The notes under the pieces: generated by a model
What the model saw: only the letters and a program-made list of their open reading frames with translations
What the model was told of the DNA's origin: nothing
The model's database searches: none
Made by a program: the position numbers and the translations under genes
NCBI GenBank assembly: GCA_016201105.1
Contig: JACQDN010000059.1
Span: 1 to 64,000, forward strand
Length of the DNA stretch: 64,000 bases
Source of the DNA: Pseudomonadota bacterium
GTDB lineage: Bacteria; Pseudomonadota; Alphaproteobacteria; Micropepsales; Micropepsaceae
Direction: 5' to 3'
In this document: piece after piece, positions 8,309-53,918 of the stretch
How positions within the stretch are numbered: the first letter of the stretch is position 1
Layout of the letters: every line of letters begins with the position of its first letter

Positions 8309-10200
8309 GCCGGCCTCCGGTTGGCAACGCCGTCGATACCCGCCGCATTGACGGGATAGGCGGTCGGCAGCTGAGCGCTGTTGCGCTGCTGCGCGAAGAG
8401 AAGAACGTCGCGCGCGATCTGTACCTGGGGATGGGCGCCCACCGCGCCGTGCTCGATCATGCAGACGCAAGCGTAACGCGGCTGCTGCACGGGGGCGAAC
8501 GCAATGAAGAGCGCGTGATCGCGCAGTTTCCACGGCAAGGATTGATTGCTCTTCACGCCCGTGGCGCGCTCTTCCTTGGTGATGCGGCGCACCTGCGCGG
8601 TGCCCGTCTTGCCTGCCATTTCGAAGCCCGCGTCCGGGATGCGCCAGGCGTAGGCGGTGCCCCCCGGTTCGTTGCAGACGGCGTTCATGCCCGATTGCAC
8701 GGCGAGGATCGCCTTGTCGGAGAACGGCAACGCCTTGATCTGCGGGCGCGGCTGTACGCTCTGGCCGACGACGCGGGTGATGCGCGGGCTCACCTGATTG
8801 CCGCTGGCGATGCGGGCGGCGAGCGTGCAGAGCTGCAGCGGCGTGACGAGCACATAACCCTGGCCGATGCCGGTGACGAGCGTTTCGCCCTGCTGCCAGG
8901 GTACGCCGTAATGCTGCTCTTTCCAGGCGCGGCCGGGAATGACGCCAGAGCGCTCGCCGGGGATTTCGATTCCGGTACGCTCACCGAGGCCGAGCTTGTG
9001 GGCCGCGTCTTCCATCTTGTCGATGCCGAGACGCTTGGCGACTTCATAGAAGAAAACGTCGCAAGACTGCTGAATGCCGCGATGCAGATCGACATGGCCG
9101 TGGCCGCCACGCTTCCAGCAGTGGAAGACGTTGTTGCCGAGCGTAATCGAACCGGTGCAGACCACCTGAAGATCGTCGAGCCCCGCCTCAACCGCCGCCA
9201 TGGCCATGGCGGGTTTGAAGGTCGAGCCCGGCGGATAGGCGCCGGAAAGCGCCTTGTTCATCAGCGGGGTGTGATCGTCGGAGGTCAGCGCGTTCCATTG
9301 TCCGTGGTTGATTCCGACGTTGAACAGATTGGGATCGAAGCCGGGGGTGGAACACAGCGCCAGCACATCGCCGTTGGTGACATCCATCACCACACAGGCC
9401 GCGCTCTCGCCAGCCATGCGCTCGGCGGTAAAGCGCTGCACGTCGCGGTCGATGGTGAGGTAGATATCCGAACCCGGCGTGCCAGGCTCATGGCCAAGTT
9501 CGCGGATCACGCGGCCATAGACATTGACTTCCACGCGGCTGGCGCCCGCGGTGCCGCGGATCTCTGCATCGAATTGCTTTTCAATGCCGCGCTTGCCGAT
9601 GCGAAACCCGGGAAGGTCGAGCAGCGGGTCTTGGTCGTCCTTCTTGTCGTCCGGCGAAACCGACGCGACATATCCCAGGATGTGGGACATCTCGTCGTTG
9701 AAGGGATAAGCGCGCGTCTCGCCCACGTCCGGCTGAATGCCGGAGAGATAGGGCAGATGAAGATTGACGCGGGCGAATTCTTCCCAAGTCAAGTTCTCGG
9801 CCACGGTGACAGGCACAAATTTCTTGTTCTGCGCGATGTCGCGCTTGATGCGTTCGCGCTGCGTGGGCGTGATGAGGATGATCTGGCCGATGGTATCGAG
9901 CGCGGCGTCGATGCCGTCTGAAGCCTGCTCCGGGATCAGCAGAACGCGATAATTGCGCCGGTTGTTGGCCAGTTCCTGGGCGAAACGATCGAGGATGCGC
10001 CCCCGCAACGGCGCCACCAGACGCTGGCTGACGCGGTTTTCTTCCGCGCGCGTCATGAACTGATCGCCTTCGAGGATCTGGAGCTGATAGAGACGGCCCG
10101 CCAAGGTCGCGAACACGGCCGTCATGCCGCCCGTCACCATGAGGGTGCGGCGCGAGAAAGTCGCGTAACGGCTTTTGTCCTTGGCATCGAACAGCGACAT
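8305..10200 (-). CDS. mrdA: Penicillin-binding protein 2 (transpeptidase)
   Basis: The 631-residue class B PBP cross-links peptidoglycan during elongation. A single membrane anchor lies at about 20-40, followed by a dimerisation/pedestal domain (60-230) and the transpeptidase domain. Active-site motifs are S326-T-F-K329, S379-C-D381 (the SxD form usual for PBP2) and K531-T-G-T. The start at 10200 shares one base with the mreD stop codon; the 3' end overlaps rodA by four bases. Confidence 0.97.
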   Translation of the reverse strand: MSLFDAKDKSRYATFSRRTLMVTGGMTAVFATLAGRLYQLQILEGDQFMTRAEENRVSQRLVAPLRGRILDRFAQELANNRRNYRVLLIPEQASDGIDAALDTIGQIILITPTQRERIKRDIAQNKKFVPVTVAENLTWEEFARVNLHLPYLSGIQPDVGETRAYPFNDEMSHILGYVASVSPDDKKDDQDPLLDLPGFRIGKRGIEKQFDAEIRGTAGASRVEVNVYGRVIRELGHEPGTPGSDIYLTIDRDVQRFTAERMAGESAACVVMDVTNGDVLALCSTPGFDPNLFNVGINHGQWNALTSDDHTPLMNKALSGAYPPGSTFKPAMAMAAVEAGLDDLQVVCTGSITLGNNVFHCWKRGGHGHVDLHRGIQQSCDVFFYEVAKRLGIDKMEDAAHKLGLGERTGIEIPGERSGVIPGRAWKEQHYGVPWQQGETLVTGIGQGYVLVTPLQLCTLAARIASGNQVSPRITRVVGQSVQPRPQIKALPFSDKAILAVQSGMNAVCNEPGGTAYAWRIPDAGFEMAGKTGTAQVRRITKEERATGVKSNQSLPWKLRDHALFIAFAPVQQPRYACVCMIEHGAVGAHPQVQIARDVLLFAQQRNSAQLPTAYPVNAAGIDGVANRRPA

Positions 10201-10745
10201 CAGAAATCGCTCCGCAACGGACCGACGATACGGCGATGCACGCGGTTCAGGATGGCGGCGGCCGGAATGTAGAAGAGGATCGTGACGGCAATCTGCACGA
10301 TCAGCGGCGCCAGCGGCGGCAGATGGCTGTAGTAGATGGCAACGACGACATAGGCCGTGCTCGAAGCGATGAGCATGGCGGCGGCAAAGCCGAGAATGGC
10401 GCCCAGCCCCGAAAGGCCGGCGAAGGTGTCGCGCTGGCGGTCGACGACGGCGTAAGCGGCGACGAAAGACAGCGTCCACACGCCCGCAGGCCCGCCGGAG
10501 AAAATGTCTTCCATCAGGCCGAGCGCGAAAGCCGCCGCCGGCGGCATCAGATCGGGGCGCACCAGGCACCAGAAATAGACCGGCATCAAAGCGAGCAACG
10601 GCGCGGGGATGTGACCGCCCGAAAGCGAGATCGGAATATTGGCGAGGAACACGCCCAGAACGCCGAAGGTGAAGGGCACCAGCGCCGCGAAGAAACCGCT
10701 CATGGGGAGTTGTCCAAGCCGTTCCATGACCGCGCTATCACTCAA
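10200..10745 (-). CDS. mreD: Rod shape-determining protein MreD
   Basis: The 181-residue protein has five to six membrane helices and matches MreD in size, hydrophobic pattern and the FALGLMEDIFSGGPAG segment (about 95-110), a conserved MreD signature. It links MreC and the cytoplasmic MreB filaments at the inner membrane. Its start overlaps the mreC end by eight bases and its stop overlaps the mrdA start, consistent with one polycistronic message. Confidence 0.93.
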   Translation of the reverse strand: MSDSAVMERLGQLPMSGFFAALVPFTFGVLGVFLANIPISLSGGHIPAPLLALMPVYFWCLVRPDLMPPAAAFALGLMEDIFSGGPAGVWTLSFVAAYAVVDRQRDTFAGLSGLGAILGFAAAMLIASSTAYVVVAIYYSHLPPLAPLIVQIAVTILFYIPAAAILNRVHRRIVGPLRSDF

Positions 10746-46227: not shown

Positions 46228-46315
46228 CGTAAACGAATATTGCTCTTAGTCATAGTAGCATTGAACCTTTCCGCCTTTTGATATCTGAACTTTAGCGCGA
46301 CATTTGCGAGGAAAT

Positions 46316-48607
46316 ATGCCCTCGATTGACAGCAACAATTCTCCAAGTTTGTCTCACATCGCCACTTCGTCGGTGGGAATGGCGTTCGTTGCCCTCATTT
46401 GTGGGCTGTCAGGACTAATGTACGGGCTGGGCCGAGCCTTTGAGCATACCCAGGTCCACTATCTGCAAGTACTACAGGTATTCTTATTCGCGGTCCTCAT
46501 CTATCCCTATTTCTATAGTCGATACGTTTCCGTTGAGGGACCCAAGCTAAATCCCGATGAATTGCGCGACAGAGTACGGTTCGTTTCTTTCTGGATAACA
46601 CTCTGCACGTGCCTTTTCGTGATTTTGACCAGCGCCCTGCTCGTCATCCTTGGAATTGCACCCCCTAATGGATGGACGATGTGGTTTGGCCTCACAGGAT
46701 TGGCGGCCCTCCCTTTTCTCTATCTTGGAATCACAACACATCAGAGGTTACTCGAGAGTGGCGAAATCGCTGAAGGCGAGCGCTTGTTCAAGAACAAGGT
46801 GCTCATTCCTGCCTTTGCCACTTGCCTAATCTCATTCTCGTTCGGCTGGGCCATCAATCACACCGACTTCTGGTGGACGCTCATTGTTCCAATTCTCTTG
46901 ATTGTCACAGGACGACATGTCGTAGACGGCGGCTGGCGGCGCATGCTGCCTTTTGTACTCGGCGTTATTTTGGTGGCGTTCGTTTCGTCACTCTTATTTC
47001 ATGGGACAATGTTTGCAATTGGTCGCGTCGTACTAACCGGGATCATAATGACGCTCGGAATGGGCGTATCCGAGGTATGCAAGCGCGTCGTCAGCATCGC
47101 GAATGGCGACCAATTTGTTGCGACACCTGCAGAGGATGCTACATTCTATCTGTCAGGGTCGAACTGGTCGAGCATAGTCTTTCCGCTTTGCTTGTGCTTG
47201 CTTCCCCTTCTCAATGTGGAACTAGCAGTGCTGCCAACGTTTGCCATACTGTCGTTTCAATATATGCATTGGCACTATTTTTCACCGAATAAGGGGCATG
47301 TTTGGCTCCTGGTTATCAACGTCATGCTCGGTTTCTCTCTGCCGCTGGCACTTGGCCTTCAGTACTACTTTGGGATCGTACCGCAGCCGCCCCAAATAAA
47401 TTTGTTTGCAGAATTGTTGGGCTTCTTTGGATTCCTGGTTCCCCTCCTTGCGTTCTTCGAGCACCGGCGATTTGGGATACAGTACAAGAAGTTCTTTTCT
47501 GAGCTTGCAGAGCGTCAGACGTATCTTTCTTATGACAACTGCTTCGCTCTGTTCCTTACCGTGTTTTTTGGAGCGGTGCTGGTGGTAGGGGTACTGGCGC
47601 TTCTTGTAGACGCCGATTTCGCGGTTGATCTCCGTCCCAAAGCAACTCAAACCGTGATTTATCTGATTGCGCTTGGATTTTTTGCGACCCTGACATTCAT
47701 ATTCAGACGGCCTACAATGACAGGCACACGGCCACCGCCACATCGAGTTTCCGACATGCGTCATAGGGAGTCCGGCACCAGCTCAACACCACCCGAAGCG
47801 CTCTCATCAATGGCGAGGGTTGCTGGCTTGCTTAGAATTTCGCGAACTCCCGTGGCGCTCATCGCTGGACTGCCGACATTCATTCTCACGCTTGATCAAC
47901 ATTCCTCGTGGTTACTTGCCTGTCTGAACGCAATTCCAATGGTCGTCATGACCATGGCTGGATTTGTGCTCAATGACATCCATGACGTCGACAAAGACAA
48001 AGACGTTGGTCCACGAAAGCCACTCCCTACCGGTGCGATACCGCTTCTCTGGGCCCGCAATTTTGCCTGGCTTCTGATCGTACTCAGCGTTCTTCTAGGG
48101 ATTCTTCTATCGCAAGGTGGTTCCGCTTATGCCGTAGCGTTTGGAATAGTCGGTGTGGCGATGTATTCGTCACTCGCCATTCGCTTTCCCCTCTTCAAGG
48201 GTCTCACAACGTCGCTCCTTTCTTGCATCCCCTTCGCTTACGCATCTCTCTTGTGCGACCATCACATATCCTTGTTGCTCTACTTATCTCTGATGGCGTT
48301 TATTTTTGGCAGAGAGATGCTTCTGGATTTGCGGGATTGGTCATTCGATGCGGCAGTGGGTATCAAGACACTAGCGATGGTCCTTGGTCGAACGAGTAGT
48401 CGCGTGGCCGGCTGGTGTATGATGGTTGGCAGTCTAGTTGTCGGGTTGCCGTTCGCCCATGGCGCAGCGGGTACTTTTGTTCAGATCGCACTGGTGTCTC
48501 TAAGCGTCTCCCTTATTGCATACATCTTTGACGAAAAGGCTGGGCTTGGCCTTTCGCGCTTGACCTTGCTAGCCGGCTCTATTGGGATCGTTTACTTTAC
48601 CGGCTAG
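46316..48607 (+). CDS. Polytopic membrane domain fused to UbiA prenyltransferase
   Basis: This 763-residue protein has two parts. Residues about 15-480 carry some 12-13 membrane helices with no motif I recognise. Residues about 495-763 form a UbiA-type prenyltransferase: the first Asp-rich motif NDIHDVDKD begins at Asn553-Asp554 and the second, DLRDWSFD, at Asp671, with TLAMVLGR after it. UbiA enzymes move prenyl groups from polyprenyl diphosphates to quinone or lipid acceptors within the membrane. GC content is near 50 percent in sampled lines, clearly below flanking genes. GAGG precedes ATG 46316. Acceptor and the role of the N-terminal domain are unknown. Confidence 0.85.
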   Translation: MPSIDSNNSPSLSHIATSSVGMAFVALICGLSGLMYGLGRAFEHTQVHYLQVLQVFLFAVLIYPYFYSRYVSVEGPKLNPDELRDRVRFVSFWITLCTCLFVILTSALLVILGIAPPNGWTMWFGLTGLAALPFLYLGITTHQRLLESGEIAEGERLFKNKVLIPAFATCLISFSFGWAINHTDFWWTLIVPILLIVTGRHVVDGGWRRMLPFVLGVILVAFVSSLLFHGTMFAIGRVVLTGIIMTLGMGVSEVCKRVVSIANGDQFVATPAEDATFYLSGSNWSSIVFPLCLCLLPLLNVELAVLPTFAILSFQYMHWHYFSPNKGHVWLLVINVMLGFSLPLALGLQYYFGIVPQPPQINLFAELLGFFGFLVPLLAFFEHRRFGIQYKKFFSELAERQTYLSYDNCFALFLTVFFGAVLVVGVLALLVDADFAVDLRPKATQTVIYLIALGFFATLTFIFRRPTMTGTRPPPHRVSDMRHRESGTSSTPPEALSSMARVAGLLRISRTPVALIAGLPTFILTLDQHSSWLLACLNAIPMVVMTMAGFVLNDIHDVDKDKDVGPRKPLPTGAIPLLWARNFAWLLIVLSVLLGILLSQGGSAYAVAFGIVGVAMYSSLAIRFPLFKGLTTSLLSCIPFAYASLLCDHHISLLLYLSLMAFIFGREMLLDLRDWSFDAAVGIKTLAMVLGRTSSRVAGWCMMVGSLVVGLPFAHGAAGTFVQIALVSLSVSLIAYIFDEKAGLGLSRLTLLAGSIGIVYFTG

Positions 48608-48681: not shown

Positions 48682-51147
48682 ATGCCCTCCCCCCTCGACA
48701 AATATCGCGCCAAGCGGCGCTTCAACAAAACACCGGAGCCTGAGGGCGGCGCGGGGCACGGCGACGCGCCGATCTTCGTCATCCAGAAGCATCATGCGCG
48801 GCGCATGCATTACGACCTGCGCCTGGAGATCGGCGGCACATTGAAAAGCTGGGCGGTGCCGGAAGGGCCCTGTCTCGATCCCAAAGTGCGCCGCTTTGCG
48901 AAGCTGGTGGAAGATCATCCGCTCGACTATGCGAGTTTCGAGGGGCGCATTCCGGCCGGCAATTACGGCGCCGGCACCGTCATCGTGTGGGACCGCGGCA
49001 CCTGGGTGACGCTGGCCGACGATGCCGAAGAAGCCATCGCCGACGGCGAACTCAAAATCCGTCTCTCGGGCGAGAAACTTTCCGGTGGCTGGACGCTGGT
49101 GCGTCTGCCGGACGATCCCAGCAATTGGCTGCTCATCAAGGAACGCGACATCGCGGCGCGTCCGCTTGCCGACTACGACGTGCTGGTGGAAGAGCCCAAC
49201 AGCGTCGTTACCGGCAAGCCGGTCGACGAGGTGTCGCCGCCGGAGCGCAAGCCCGTCAAGAAACCCAAAGCCGACAAGATTCCCGGCGCCCGCGCCTCCG
49301 CCATGCCCAAGCGCTGGTCGCCGCAGCTGGCGACCTCCGTCGAGACTGCGCCCAAGGGCAAGGATTGGCTCTGCGAGATCAAATATGACGGCTATCGCAC
49401 TCTGGCCTTCTTCGAGGACGGCCAGGTCCGCCTCATCACCCGCAACGGTCACGACTGGACGGAGCGCTACAAGGCGGTGGCAAAAGCTTTCGCGAAGCTT
49501 CCGTGCAAAACCGCCATCGTGGACGGCGAAGTCTGCGTGCAGGATCCGCGCGGCATCACCTCGCTGAACCTGCTCGAAGCGACGCTGGAAGGCAAAGAGA
49601 GCCACGCGCTGATCTATTACGCTTTCGATCTTTGCTATCTCGACGGCTACGACCTCAGCCACGCGAAACTCACCGACCGTCGCGCGGCGCTGCAGGGATT
49701 GATCGACCCACTGATCGACGAGCGCTCACCGATCCAGTTCAGCGATTCCATCGAAGGCGATGCCGAGACGCTGTTCGCGCAAGCCAGCCGCATGGGGCTG
49801 GAAGGCATTGTCTGCAAGAAGGTGGACGCGCCTTACGTGCAGAGGCGGTCCGAGACCTGGCAGAAGGTGAAACGCGTCGACATCGATACCTTCACTGTCA
49901 TCGGATATCTCTCGAGCGCGCCCAAATGCGTGACCTCGCTTGTGCTTGCCGAAGAGCGCGACGGCGAACTGCAATATGCCTGCCGCGCCGGATCGGGCAT
50001 TTCCGAAGCCAAGGGGCGCGCCCTGTATGCCGAGTTCTCCAAAGCGGAACGCTCAAAGCCTGTCATTGCCGTGCCTAAAACGGATCCAAAATCTCGGGGC
50101 GCGCATTGGATCGAACCCAACTGGAGCGCGGAGATCGCCTATCGCACACGCTCATCGGAGAATGCGCCGCGCGCGCCAGTCGTGTTGAGCGTGACCGCGA
50201 AAGCGCCGGCGAGGAAGCCTGCGCGTTCGCTCAAACCTAAACTCGTCGGCGACCGCGAACTTGCCGCGATCCATCTCACCAATCCCGAACGCGAGATGTT
50301 CGAAGGCAGCGGCGTCACCAAGCTCGACATCGCGCTTCACTACGCGCGCGTCGGCGATTGGGCGCTGCCGGAATTGCTGCGCCGGCCGCTCACGATCTTT
50401 CGCTGCACCACGGGCCATCTGAAGGATTGCTTCTATCAACGCCACGCCTTCCCCGGCTTGCCCGACGGCGTCGAGACCATCGACCTCAAGGACGAAGAAG
50501 GCCGCGCCGCGTTCATCACGGTGACGCAGCCGAAGGGTTATCTGGCACTGGCGCAATTCGGCGCCATCGAGCTTCATCTGTGGGGCTGCAAAATCGACGA
50601 TCCCGAACACCCCGACCGCCTCGTCATCGATCTTGATCCCGACGAGAGCCTGCCCTGGGCACGTGTCTGCGACGCGGCGGAGATTCTGAAGACGCGTTTG
50701 GAAACGATGGGCCTTCATCCCTTCCTGCGCACCACGGGCGGCAAGGGACTCCATCTCGTCATGGCGCTGAAGCCGGGCCATGACTGGCCGACCGTGAAAG
50801 GATTTGCCGAAGCGTTCTCGCGCGCGATGGCAGCGGACTCCCCCAGCCTCTTCACAGCCGTGTCATCGAAGGAGCGGCGCAAGGGGCGCATCTATCTCGA
50901 TTATCTGCGCAACGGGCGCGGCGCGAGCGCGGTCGCCTCCTACTCCTTGCGTGCGAGGCCTGGATTTCCCGTCGCGACCCCAATCTCTTGGGCGGAGCTG
51001 CGCACGTTAACGGGCGGGTCAGTCTTCAATCGTATTAATATCTTGAAGCGGCTGGAGACTCTTTCCGCCGACCCCTGGGATGGATTAGGATCAAGTTCCT
51101 CTTCGATCTCGCCGCAGGCGCGGCGTGAAGTGGGCCTGAAGAAATGA
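48682..51147 (+). CDS. ligD: NHEJ DNA ligase LigD (PE-LIG-POL)
   Basis: The 821-residue multidomain enzyme repairs double-strand breaks with Ku. Order: 3'-phosphoesterase (about 10-150, HYDLRLEIGG with metal His/Asp), ATP-dependent ligase with the nucleotidyl Lys234 in EIKYDGYR, and archaeo-eukaryotic primase-type polymerase (about 535-820) with the metal-binding DLDPDE and the catalytic His-containing GKGLHLV. All three domains are complete. ku starts 15 bases downstream. Confidence 0.97.
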   Translation: MPSPLDKYRAKRRFNKTPEPEGGAGHGDAPIFVIQKHHARRMHYDLRLEIGGTLKSWAVPEGPCLDPKVRRFAKLVEDHPLDYASFEGRIPAGNYGAGTVIVWDRGTWVTLADDAEEAIADGELKIRLSGEKLSGGWTLVRLPDDPSNWLLIKERDIAARPLADYDVLVEEPNSVVTGKPVDEVSPPERKPVKKPKADKIPGARASAMPKRWSPQLATSVETAPKGKDWLCEIKYDGYRTLAFFEDGQVRLITRNGHDWTERYKAVAKAFAKLPCKTAIVDGEVCVQDPRGITSLNLLEATLEGKESHALIYYAFDLCYLDGYDLSHAKLTDRRAALQGLIDPLIDERSPIQFSDSIEGDAETLFAQASRMGLEGIVCKKVDAPYVQRRSETWQKVKRVDIDTFTVIGYLSSAPKCVTSLVLAEERDGELQYACRAGSGISEAKGRALYAEFSKAERSKPVIAVPKTDPKSRGAHWIEPNWSAEIAYRTRSSENAPRAPVVLSVTAKAPARKPARSLKPKLVGDRELAAIHLTNPEREMFEGSGVTKLDIALHYARVGDWALPELLRRPLTIFRCTTGHLKDCFYQRHAFPGLPDGVETIDLKDEEGRAAFITVTQPKGYLALAQFGAIELHLWGCKIDDPEHPDRLVIDLDPDESLPWARVCDAAEILKTRLETMGLHPFLRTTGGKGLHLVMALKPGHDWPTVKGFAEAFSRAMAADSPSLFTAVSSKERRKGRIYLDYLRNGRGASAVASYSLRARPGFPVATPISWAELRTLTGGSVFNRINILKRLETLSADPWDGLGSSSSSISPQARREVGLKK

Positions 51148-51162
51148 AATAGGAATCGTACG

Positions 51163-52023
51163 ATGGCCGGACGCGCCTCTTGGAGCGGATATCTCAAGCT
51201 TTCCCTGGTCTCCTGCCCGGTGAAGCTCTACACGGCGACGTCCGCGTCCGCCGGGAAGATTTCGTTCAATCTCCTGCACAAGGACACCCTGAACCGCATC
51301 CAGCAGAAGTATCACGACCCCGAACTGGGCCAGGTCGAGCGCACCGATCTGGTGAAGGGCTATCAGTTCGAAAAGGACAAATACGTCGTCGTCACGCAGG
51401 AAGAGATGGACGAGATCCAGGTCGAGTCGAGCAAGACGATCGACATCGACGGCTTCGTTGACGCGGGCGCCATCGATCCCATCTATCTCGACACGCCCTA
51501 TTACATGGCGCCGGAAGGCCCCATCGCCGAAGAGACCTATGCCGTCGTCCTGGAAGCAATGAAGCGGGCGAAGGTGGTGGCGCTGGCGCGCCTCGTCATG
51601 TCGGGCCGCGAACGTCTCGTCGCCATTCATCCGCTGGAAGGCGGCTTCAAAGTGACGACCATGCGCACCGCGAAGGAAGTGAAACAGCCCTCGACCGTGT
51701 TCGAAAAGCTCCACGGCAAAGTGACGGGCGACATGCTTGCCATGGCAGCGCAGATCATCACCAAGAAGAAGTTGAAGAAGTTCGACGCCGCCGAATTCGA
51801 GGACCGCTACGAAAACGCGCTGATGACGCTGGTGCAGTCCAAGATCAAGGGCGGCAAGCCGATCATCACCAAAGTGCCGGAACGCGGCAATGTGGTGAAC
51901 CTGATGGATGCGCTGCGCCGTTCCATCGAAGAAGAGCGCCGCCCCGCCGCGCCCAGCCTGGGCAAGGAAAAGAAGGCGGCGAGGCCCGCCAAGAGCGCAA
52001 CCAAGAAAAAAGCGCGCGCTTAG
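51163..52023 (+). CDS. ku: Non-homologous end joining protein Ku
   Basis: The 286-residue Ku forms a ring-shaped homodimer that binds DNA ends and recruits LigD. Typical features: WSGYLKLSLVSCPVKLYTA at the N-terminus, the central YYMAPEG and KVVALARLVMSGRERLV, and a Lys/Ala-rich C-terminal tail (KKAARPAKSATKKKARA) that can extend DNA contacts. It lies between ligD and the BRCT-TPR gene, three bases before the latter. Confidence 0.97.
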   Translation: MAGRASWSGYLKLSLVSCPVKLYTATSASAGKISFNLLHKDTLNRIQQKYHDPELGQVERTDLVKGYQFEKDKYVVVTQEEMDEIQVESSKTIDIDGFVDAGAIDPIYLDTPYYMAPEGPIAEETYAVVLEAMKRAKVVALARLVMSGRERLVAIHPLEGGFKVTTMRTAKEVKQPSTVFEKLHGKVTGDMLAMAAQIITKKKLKKFDAAEFEDRYENALMTLVQSKIKGGKPIITKVPERGNVVNLMDALRRSIEEERRPAAPSLGKEKKAARPAKSATKKKARA

Positions 52024-52026
52024 TCC

Positions 52027-53094
52027 ATGGATCTGTTTCGCCGGTCGGTCGCGCTTTACGGGCGGTTCTCGCCGGGCACGCGCGAGCGCCTGCAACAGGA
52101 GATCGTCGAGCGCGGCGGCACGGTCGTGCGCGATCTTACGCGCCGCAGCGACTTTCTCGTCGTCGGCGCCTATGCGACAGCCCTGATCGACAGCTTCTCG
52201 CTCGCGTCGCGCTTGCAGACAGCGACCACGCGCGGCGTTCCGTTTTTCGGCGAGCGCGCGTTTGGCAGCGCGATCCGCGGCGAAGCGGGCGAAGAGCCCA
52301 CCATGCCGCTTTCGCGCGCGCTGGCACCCACGGCGCTGACGCCGGAAGACGCCCGGCTGCTTGCGGCGTTCGACCTCATCGTCCTGAAGAACGATCATTG
52401 CCGGTTTGCCGATGTCGGCGTCATCCGCACCGCGGCCGAGCTGCTCAGCCAGAACCGCTCGCGCGCCGAGGTGGTGCGGATCATGATGCGGGCGCGCGAT
52501 CATGCGCCGTCAGGCCGGCGAAAGATCGTGCTGGTGCCGTCCGGCGATGCGGGCCTGCAGTGGGAAACCGGTTTCACGACGCTCGAGGGGCAAGGGCTGC
52601 TGCCGCTCGACAACGCTCCGGCCAATCTCGAGGAAATCTTCGAAGACGCCGAACTCGCGGAAGCCGGCGGCGCGCACGACATCGCCGCGCGGCTCTACGA
52701 GACCTGTGCGCAGGCCGACCGTGACGACGCCATCGCGCCGTTCAATCTGGGAAACATCCGCCTTGCTCAAGGCAAGCATGACGAAGCCTCGCTCGCCTAT
52801 GCCAGAGCGCTGGCGCGCGACGCGGACTTCGTGGAAGCGCGATACAACCTTTCGATCGTGCATGAAGCCCAGAAGCGCCCGAAACAGGCAAAGGAAGAGC
52901 TGAGACGGGTGCTCGAACTCGATCCCGCCTATGCCGACGCGGTCTTCAACCTGGCGCAATTGCTGCTCAAGACGGGAGAGCTTTCAGGGGCGAAGGTGCT
53001 CTACGAACGCTACCTCACGCTCGACCCGCCGGCGGAGTGGGCGGCGACCGCGCGCAAAGCCATCACCTATTGCGCAGCGAAACTGTCGGCCTGA
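52027..53094 (+). CDS. BRCT-TPR protein in the ligD-ku operon
   Basis: The 355-residue protein starts with a BRCT-like domain (about 4-85: SVALYGRFSPG, then EIVERGGTVVRDLTRRSDFLVVG and a late GVPFFGERAF). A middle segment (about 95-200) has charged helices and a KIVLVPSGDAGLQW strand; its fold is unclear, possibly MerR/HTH-like. From about 205 to 355 it has tetratricopeptide repeats (AIAPFNLGNIRLAQGKHDEA, FVEARYNLSIVHEAQ, YADAVFNLAQLLLKTGEL). It begins three bases after the ku stop, so it is co-translated with ku and ligD. BRCT domains bind DNA ends or phosphoproteins, TPRs bind proteins; a role as NHEJ scaffold is inferred. Confidence 0.8.
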   Translation: MDLFRRSVALYGRFSPGTRERLQQEIVERGGTVVRDLTRRSDFLVVGAYATALIDSFSLASRLQTATTRGVPFFGERAFGSAIRGEAGEEPTMPLSRALAPTALTPEDARLLAAFDLIVLKNDHCRFADVGVIRTAAELLSQNRSRAEVVRIMMRARDHAPSGRRKIVLVPSGDAGLQWETGFTTLEGQGLLPLDNAPANLEEIFEDAELAEAGGAHDIAARLYETCAQADRDDAIAPFNLGNIRLAQGKHDEASLAYARALARDADFVEARYNLSIVHEAQKRPKQAKEELRRVLELDPAYADAVFNLAQLLLKTGELSGAKVLYERYLTLDPPAEWAATARKAITYCAAKLSA

Positions 53095-53105
53095 AAAACC
53101 CGGCG

Positions 53106-53918
53106 CTAATTCTGCACTCCAATCATCCACGCTCCGGCGGCAAGAGCGGCGATGCCGGCCAGCGTAGACAGATATCTGCCGCCCGGAACGATCTTCTCCG
53201 CCAATACGAAAATCATGATGGCGGCGATCCACAGTACGTTCATCACGCCGCCGACGAACAACAGCGCCATCAGCGCCCAGCAACAGCCGATGCAGTAAAA
53301 CCCGTGCAGGGCGCCAAGCCGGAGCGATCCGAACGCGGTCGATTGAAACCCGCCGTGACGCTGCACGAAGGAGAGCGGCGCGCGGCATTGCGACAGGCAC
53401 GCGTTCTTGAGCGGCGAGAGCTGATAGAGCCCCGCGACCAGGAGAATGGCGCCGCCGAAATAGCGGCTCGTGCTCGCCATTGCCGGCGACAGCAGCGCGG
53501 CCTGCTCGAGGCTAAATTGCGCCGCCGTCGCGAGCGCGGCGAACAATGTCCACGCCAGCAGATAGCCGGAGGCGAACCATCCGGCCGGCGCGAAGGGCTT
53601 GCCCAAGGTGCCCGATTGCCGTGCCACCTGGGTGTAGATGAGAACCATGGGCGCGACCGACGGCGTCATCATGCCGATCATCATCACCGCCCACATCGTG
53701 AAGACGAACAGAGCGTGCATCGCCGTCCACTGCACGAAAGCGGGCGCCAGCATCGCGCCCATGTCCATCCCGGGCATGGCGGCCGGCGCCGCATTCATCC
53801 CGGCCGCCAGCCACAGCACATAGGCCCACGCCAACGCGGTGAGCGCGATCAGCGCCGCGGCGGCGATCAGGCCGTCGCGTTTGAGCAGCGCCGAAAGCGC
53901 CCCGCCCGGCTCACTCAT
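53106..53918 (-). CDS. DUF2182 family membrane protein
   Basis: The 270-residue protein has about seven membrane helices and the DUF2182 signature MWAVMMIGMMTPSVAPMVL, and a Cys-rich stretch near 175-225 (LKNACLSQCRAPL, GFYCIGCCWALM). The family is predicted to bind metal. Its start overlaps the stop of the upstream DUF1326 gene (ATGA), a pairing that recurs in proteobacteria. The gap to the convergent TPR gene is only 11 bases. Function unknown. Confidence 0.85.
   Translation of the reverse strand: MSEPGGALSALLKRDGLIAAAALIALTALAWAYVLWLAAGMNAAPAAMPGMDMGAMLAPAFVQWTAMHALFVFTMWAVMMIGMMTPSVAPMVLIYTQVARQSGTLGKPFAPAGWFASGYLLAWTLFAALATAAQFSLEQAALLSPAMASTSRYFGGAILLVAGLYQLSPLKNACLSQCRAPLSFVQRHGGFQSTAFGSLRLGALHGFYCIGCCWALMALLFVGGVMNVLWIAAIMIFVLAEKIVPGGRYLSTLAGIAALAAGAWMIGVQN

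Follow-up and report, generated by a model that had tools for sequence, protein, structure and literature searches.

We suggest, with a probability of roughly 0.6, that the gene directly downstream of ku in the 64,000-nt DNA stretch analyzed here (the window; Micropepsaceae, assembly GCA_016201105.1, contig JACQDN010000059.1) encodes a dedicated third component of non-homologous end joining (NHEJ) of one alphaproteobacterial type, an adaptor that would dock on the tail of Ku. The gene, called the third gene below for its place in the ligD-ku run, encodes a protein with an N-terminal BRCT domain, a probable MerR-like winged helix and C-terminal tetratricopeptide repeats (TPR). It was found strictly linked to ku in the genomes examined, it is under purifying selection, and its presence is associated with a short motif in the Ku tail. 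The bacterial NHEJ toolkit consists of the Ku homodimer and LigD according to a recent description (PMC12784961); the Ku tail motif class tied to the third gene is new here.

Linkage of the third gene to ku

The third gene is rare and, in the draws examined, occurs only with ku. A class-level draw comprised 386 genomes, and the family profile detected the gene in 13, all of them among the 58 genomes with Ku (chance of random placement 6e-12, relatedness ignored) and all with ku directly upstream. A phylum draw (249 genomes; the rows listed are all of the same class as the window) added eight genomes of one genus, and an order draw (297 genomes) eight new genomes, again with the gene beside ku in each. 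Altogether, the gene directly follows ku on the same strand in 29 of 29 gene-bearing draw genomes from 14 family groups, and the conserved co-occurrence with ku on which the sequence-only reading depended was thus found. The start codon is located -4 to +59 nt from the ku stop in 20 of the 23 loci measured. For the class, phylum and order draws, 8-12 first-look candidates per genome were scored, and misses are possible. The tally includes L107, a linked member discussed below, and leaves out G562 (a short match in a 724-aa frame, taken as the BRCT of LigA) and G148 (a weak match to a single-sequence query, E 9.7e-4, 68 residues in a 1022-aa frame, outside the 13 profile matches and with no ku within its 20-kb region).

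Within the window's own family, the N-terminal part of the third gene was detected in 2 of 96 genomes and Ku in 51. Two smaller order draws, of 23 genomes around G389 and 10 around G122, brought in no further members. A pattern scan of genome contigs gave 27 matches, three of which were confirmed and proved to be the contigs of G122, G408 and G101. Scanning 56 regions around the class-draw Kus that had no neighboring match revealed a single truncated gene start, located where a contig ends (L132; relaxed scan, E 0.014).

The linkage to ku is stricter than that to ligD. The ligD gene was also present at seven of the eight family loci for which a larger surrounding region was viewed (20 kb for seven loci, 7.4 kb for one), and the gene order varies between ligD-ku-third gene and ku-third gene-ligD, which argues that the third gene stays with ku.

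Matching plasmid records (87) all belong to Sinorhizobium, Ensifer or Pararhizobium; the adjacency to ku was read in two of the 87 (L099 and L100). On the Sinorhizobium pSymB, the start of the third gene overlaps the ku stop by one base, and the gene is annotated only as 'tetratricopeptide repeat protein'. Genes for an alpha/beta hydrolase and exonuclease III follow it on S. meliloti pSymB (L099, 9914-11336) and are possibly further members of a repair operon; the upstream ligD of L099 lies in two overlapping frames. At L051 (about 9500-9581) no common in-frame start codon precedes the BRCT, and a CTG overlaps the ku stop, while at L054 (about 10217-10262) the likely start of the third gene is in another frame.

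Full-length relatives of the protein are 26-65% identical to it. The ratio of nonsynonymous to synonymous substitution rates (dN/dS) for seven pairs was 0.08-0.26 for the third gene and 0.02-0.18 for ku, so the third gene is under purifying selection and is less constrained than ku. A chance open reading frame (ORF) is rejected by these relatives and by dN/dS well below 1. A generic TPR gene is rejected as well, since the N-terminal profile tracks ku; the full-protein query gave 10 other matches in its own genome, all to the TPR part alone and in frames of 450-1220 aa. A phage origin is unsupported: 50,697 phage records gave no match to the third gene, and none of the 10 stretches of viral contigs that fit the pattern encodes a relative of the protein.

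Ku tail motif

The Ku proteins encoded next to the third gene (linked Kus) carry [KR]-P-x-A-x-S, mostly as KPPAKS, just after their conserved minimal C-terminus. The motif was first spotted by eye in the Ku tails and then tested on fresh data. In the first set, it was present in 21 of 23 linked Kus and 1 of 57 unlinked Kus, while shuffled tails gave expectations of 0.59 and 0.53. The fresh unlinked set, 30 loci out of 56 Ku matches in the window's family, had no motif bearer (0/30, 29 of them new), and all eight newly found linked Kus had the motif; these eight are at best 59-84% identical to the earlier linked ones and are relatives, not independent draws. Overall, 29 of 31 linked Kus have the motif, compared with 1 of 86 unlinked ones. 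This tally counts L132 as linked and is made without L107, L171 and L167, whose Ku tails are broken or truncated, L165, which offered no anchor, and L017, which is the same Ku as L136. The sole unlinked bearer, L158 (G268:C27, RPRAAS), is a second Ku from a genome carrying the third gene, and its motif is near-identical to that of the linked Ku of the same genome (L056, RPRAVS).

In a tree of 84 Ku sequences, 18 linked Kus and the L132 Ku form one clade (Shimodaira-Hasegawa approximate likelihood ratio test, SH-aLRT, 100), and five linked Kus are placed outside it (L051, L055, L056, L105 and L106). The linked state is clustered on the tree (6 changes vs a shuffled mean of 20).

Domain architecture of the third protein

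The BRCT domain is below threshold in Pfam for the window protein alone (17.0 bits vs the cut-off of 21.3, E 0.007), and at E up to 1 it was detected in six of nine members (best E 0.0014). A family profile of nine sequences matched the BRCT structures of LigA (2owo, E 5e-8; 1l7b, 2e-6) and the RFC1 BRCT (8e-5). In most family genomes this profile also picks up long frames through a short N-terminal match; these are evidently LigA proteins, recognized by their C-terminal BRCT. A LigA-type or third-gene match was obtained in 62 of 64 genomes.

AlphaFold models were built on a four-row alignment. In the full-length model (mean predicted local distance difference test, pLDDT, 76; predicted template modeling score, pTM, 0.46), residues 1-87 have the BRCT topology, and the order beta-alpha-beta-beta-alpha-beta-alpha is the same in the full and N-terminal models. 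Foldseek with the BRCT model gave a single match at E <= 0.001, a LigA chain; the remaining matches were mostly BRCTs (RFC1, XRCC1, PARP4, Rad4 and others), and BRCT chains make up nearly all top rows. A second aligner gave Z 10.1 and rmsd 2.3 over 76 residues to the LigA chain 9a6z_B, which is an integrative model. A false Pfam match is rejected by the family profile and the LigA fold match, and the BRCT-like N-terminus followed by TPRs, as read initially from the letters, is confirmed, including the presence of a BRCT fold in a model.

The Thr-Gly pair after strand 1 contributes the phosphate-binding residues of the RFC1/LigA-type BRCTs. The Thr before the conserved Gly is found in 7 of 7 LigA BRCTs compared and in only 1 of 23 members of the third-gene family, in which the Gly is kept in 22 of 23; the domain also has an insertion before helix 2 and an Arg-rich loop. 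Binding of a 5' phosphate, an idea taken from RFC1/LigA, is weakened by the Thr loss in 22 of 23 members. Given this loss with the Gly kept, and the Arg-rich loop, the sequence pattern suggests that the BRCT is likelier to bind a protein partner than a 5' phosphate.

The sequence-only description did not include a domain between the BRCT and the TPR. Residues 95-158 of the full model form two helices, a hairpin and two helices, the layout of a MerR winged helix; the shorter, N-terminal model lacks the short first helix. Pfam MerR_1 was detected in 2 of 10 relatives (best E 0.0011) and gave no match for the window protein, and hhalign against the MerR domains of its own genome gave P 8e-4 with a probability of 24%. 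Model and profiles together suggest that this region is probably a MerR-like winged helix. Where the MerR domains of the same genome have an Arg-x-Tyr-Glu stretch, the third-gene family has Leu-Phe-Asp instead, as judged by eye from the alignments.

The TPR repeats (residues about 200-355) are beyond doubt: Pfam TPR_19 is significant (E 4e-17, tandem units over the cut-off), and Z is about 18 to 21 to TPR chains. The first helix of this part is acidic in the window protein (6 D/E and 0 K/R, residues 199-216). A helix-shaped pattern found the same TPR-start stretch, acidic by eye, in 16 of 23 members, and seven were unmatched.

Proposed role and alternative explanations

The third protein would be made with Ku from the same operon and would most likely dock on the basic extended Ku tail via [KR]-P-x-A-x-S, just past the minimal C-terminus; a basic peptide placed where the minimal C-terminus gives way to the extended one would be a natural docking site. 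The TPR solenoid with its acidic first helix in most members would be the likeliest reader of the Ku tail peptide, and such a reader is plausible. For the BRCT, and perhaps also the winged helix, the partner would be LigD, DNA or a second complex, and the protein would act as an adaptor organizing Ku-LigD-end complexes. Physical binding to Ku, the domain that reads the motif and any influence on end joining are inferred. It had been read from the sequence as a partner of Ku acting as a scaffold or end-bridging factor; the partnership gains from the linkage and the tail motif, while the scaffold or bridging part is what the protein may do. More tentatively, and with somewhat less than even odds, there may be a widespread tripartite alphaproteobacterial NHEJ subtype, in which a BRCT-winged helix-TPR adaptor reads the Ku motif and bridges the Ku-bound ends to LigD or to each other.

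Several observations weigh against a third component docking on Ku. The third gene is absent from 45 of the 58 Ku genomes of the class draw (44 if L132 is counted as a bearer), and therefore NHEJ does not need it. Two linked Kus, L105 and L106, are without the motif, and among the four second Kus examined, from genomes with the gene or its truncated start, the motif is present in one (L158) and absent from L136, L152 and L124; these three are in G030 and G107, where the gene is present, and in G161, with the truncated start only. The motif and the third gene share ancestry, most linked Kus being one clade, and the phylogenetically independent contrasts are four, of which three agree, none opposes and one is a tie (sign test p 0.25). 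On the structural side, the best of five N-terminal models has a mean pLDDT of 76.7 and the four others 63 to 39, and in L107 (G304:C20, 1460-2146) the BRCT is joined straight to the TPR without the winged helix, which is either a natural domain loss or an assembly deletion.

The MerR-like architecture (model, Pfam and hhalign) would suit a protein that regulates the NHEJ operon or the response to damage, with a winged helix that binds DNA and BRCT and TPR parts that sense a partner. We consider this unlikely, as the MerR Arg-x-Tyr-Glu stretch is replaced in the family, L107 is without the domain, and the association with the Ku tail would be left unexplained. TPR proteins often bind client tails, and near-overlapping frames of ku and the third gene would suit co-translational capture, so that the protein can also be considered a chaperone or stabilizing factor devoted to this type of Ku and without a function at the break itself; a BRCT domain would be unusual there and most Ku genomes manage without the third gene, making it the least probable of the alternatives.

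The shared ancestry leads to a further explanation, that the third gene and the motif are carried along by a single Ku lineage as passengers, spreading as a module without a functional link between them. The clustering of most linked Kus in one clade and the few independent contrasts agree with it. The motif could also serve LigD or DNA instead, because the extended Ku tail is described to contact LigD in M. tuberculosis (PMC9638933); the same source relates the minimal and extended C-terminus of mycobacterial, Bacillus and Pseudomonas Ku to LigD contact and the control of DNA binding. However, the motif is retained within an otherwise variable tail in fresh linked Kus at best 59-84% identical to earlier ones, linked Kus that fall outside the main clade (L051, L055 and L056) have it too, and the only unlinked bearer sits in a genome with the third gene. 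We regard the passenger explanation as improbable, a little more so than the regulator and a little less so than the chaperone, and prefer the adaptor docking on the Ku tail.

Comparison with known systems

The locus shares with two-component bacterial NHEJ a standard ku and a full-length ligD in one gene run, and differs from it by a third conserved gene tied to ku. The closest relatives of the BRCT by profile and fold are the C-terminal BRCT of LigA and the RFC1 BRCT, whereas the domain is located here in a separate protein with a probable winged helix and TPRs and has mostly lost the Thr. BRCT domains are present in the eukaryotic NHEJ factors Pol mu/lambda and ligase IV, and the fold matches include, at rank 27, chain 9cq3_f from a gap-filling complex of NHEJ. 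The third protein, as a candidate end-joining protein, would share the BRCT with these factors; it differs in having a TPR solenoid instead of a catalytic part, and its sequence similarity is to the LigA-type BRCTs. MerR-TPR proteins of other bacteria have a winged helix followed by TPRs, an order that the third protein would share; it differs in having the BRCT in front and the genomic tie to ku. The bridging factors XLF, XRCC4 and PAXX have a head plus coiled-coil fold; judged from the layout alone, no head/coiled-coil part is present in the predicted BRCT/winged-helix/TPR protein.

No BRCT-TPR third gene was recognized in the open-access literature, a scope outside which the key S. meliloti NHEJ papers fall, so that absence from print is not established. 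The words BRCT and tetratricopeptide are not in the main text of an extensive comparative NHEJ study (PMC7719229), nor in that of a Rhizobium etli break-repair study (PMC10932983). Both descriptions and engineering of bacterial NHEJ start from two proteins. A third component, conserved beside ku in genomes from 14 family groups and in the model symbiont Sinorhizobium meliloti, together with the Ku motif makes the interaction directly testable; it could help to explain the wide variation of Ku tails and might be relevant to end-joining tools derived from genes of Alphaproteobacteria. A tripartite NHEJ, if true, would be a bacterial counterpart in concept to the eukaryotic end-joining scaffolds.

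Features of the locus

The window Ku is a normal bacterial Ku by Pfam and NCBIfam, and LigD has all three domains in the order phosphoesterase, ligase, polymerase (PE-LIG-POL). Ku and LigD, the pair that marks a bacterial NHEJ system, are therefore both present at the locus (Pfam, NCBIfam). The ORF coordinates place the third gene as described at the outset, third in the ligD-ku run, with gaps of 15 nt between ligD and ku and 3 nt between the ku stop and the third gene (Table 1).

Table 1. Positions of the ligD-ku-third gene features in the window
Feature	Positions	Strand	Basis or remark
ligD (821 aa)	48682..51147	+	Pfam LigD_N, DNA_ligase_A_M/C, LigD_Prim-Pol; NCBIfam TIGR02776, 551 bits
ku (286 aa)	51163..52023	+	Pfam Ku, E 1.8e-44; TIGR02772, 270 bits
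Ku minimal C-terminal stretch, aa 243-254	51889..51924	+	Term from PMC9638933
Ku tail motif RPAAPS, aa 260-265	51940..51957	+	[KR]-P-x-A-x-S class; proposed docking peptide
Third gene, BRCT - winged-helix-like - TPR protein (355 aa, ATG)	52027..53094	+	
BRCT domain, aa 1-87	52027..52287	+	Profile vs LigA BRCT structures; fold search
Probable MerR-like winged helix-turn-helix, aa 95-158	52309..52500	+	Full AlphaFold model; Pfam/hhalign on relatives
Low-confidence linker, aa 159-198	52501..52620	+	pLDDT about 25-34
TPR solenoid, aa 199-355	52621..53091	+	Pfam; full model; fold search

The plus-strand run of three genes ends after the third gene, since the gene that follows (53106-53918, PpoB2 family) is encoded on the other strand. 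On the 5' side of ligD, a 767-aa frame (46304-48607) has a long N-terminal part that looks membrane-like by eye, followed by a UbiA prenyltransferase domain (residues 519-743).
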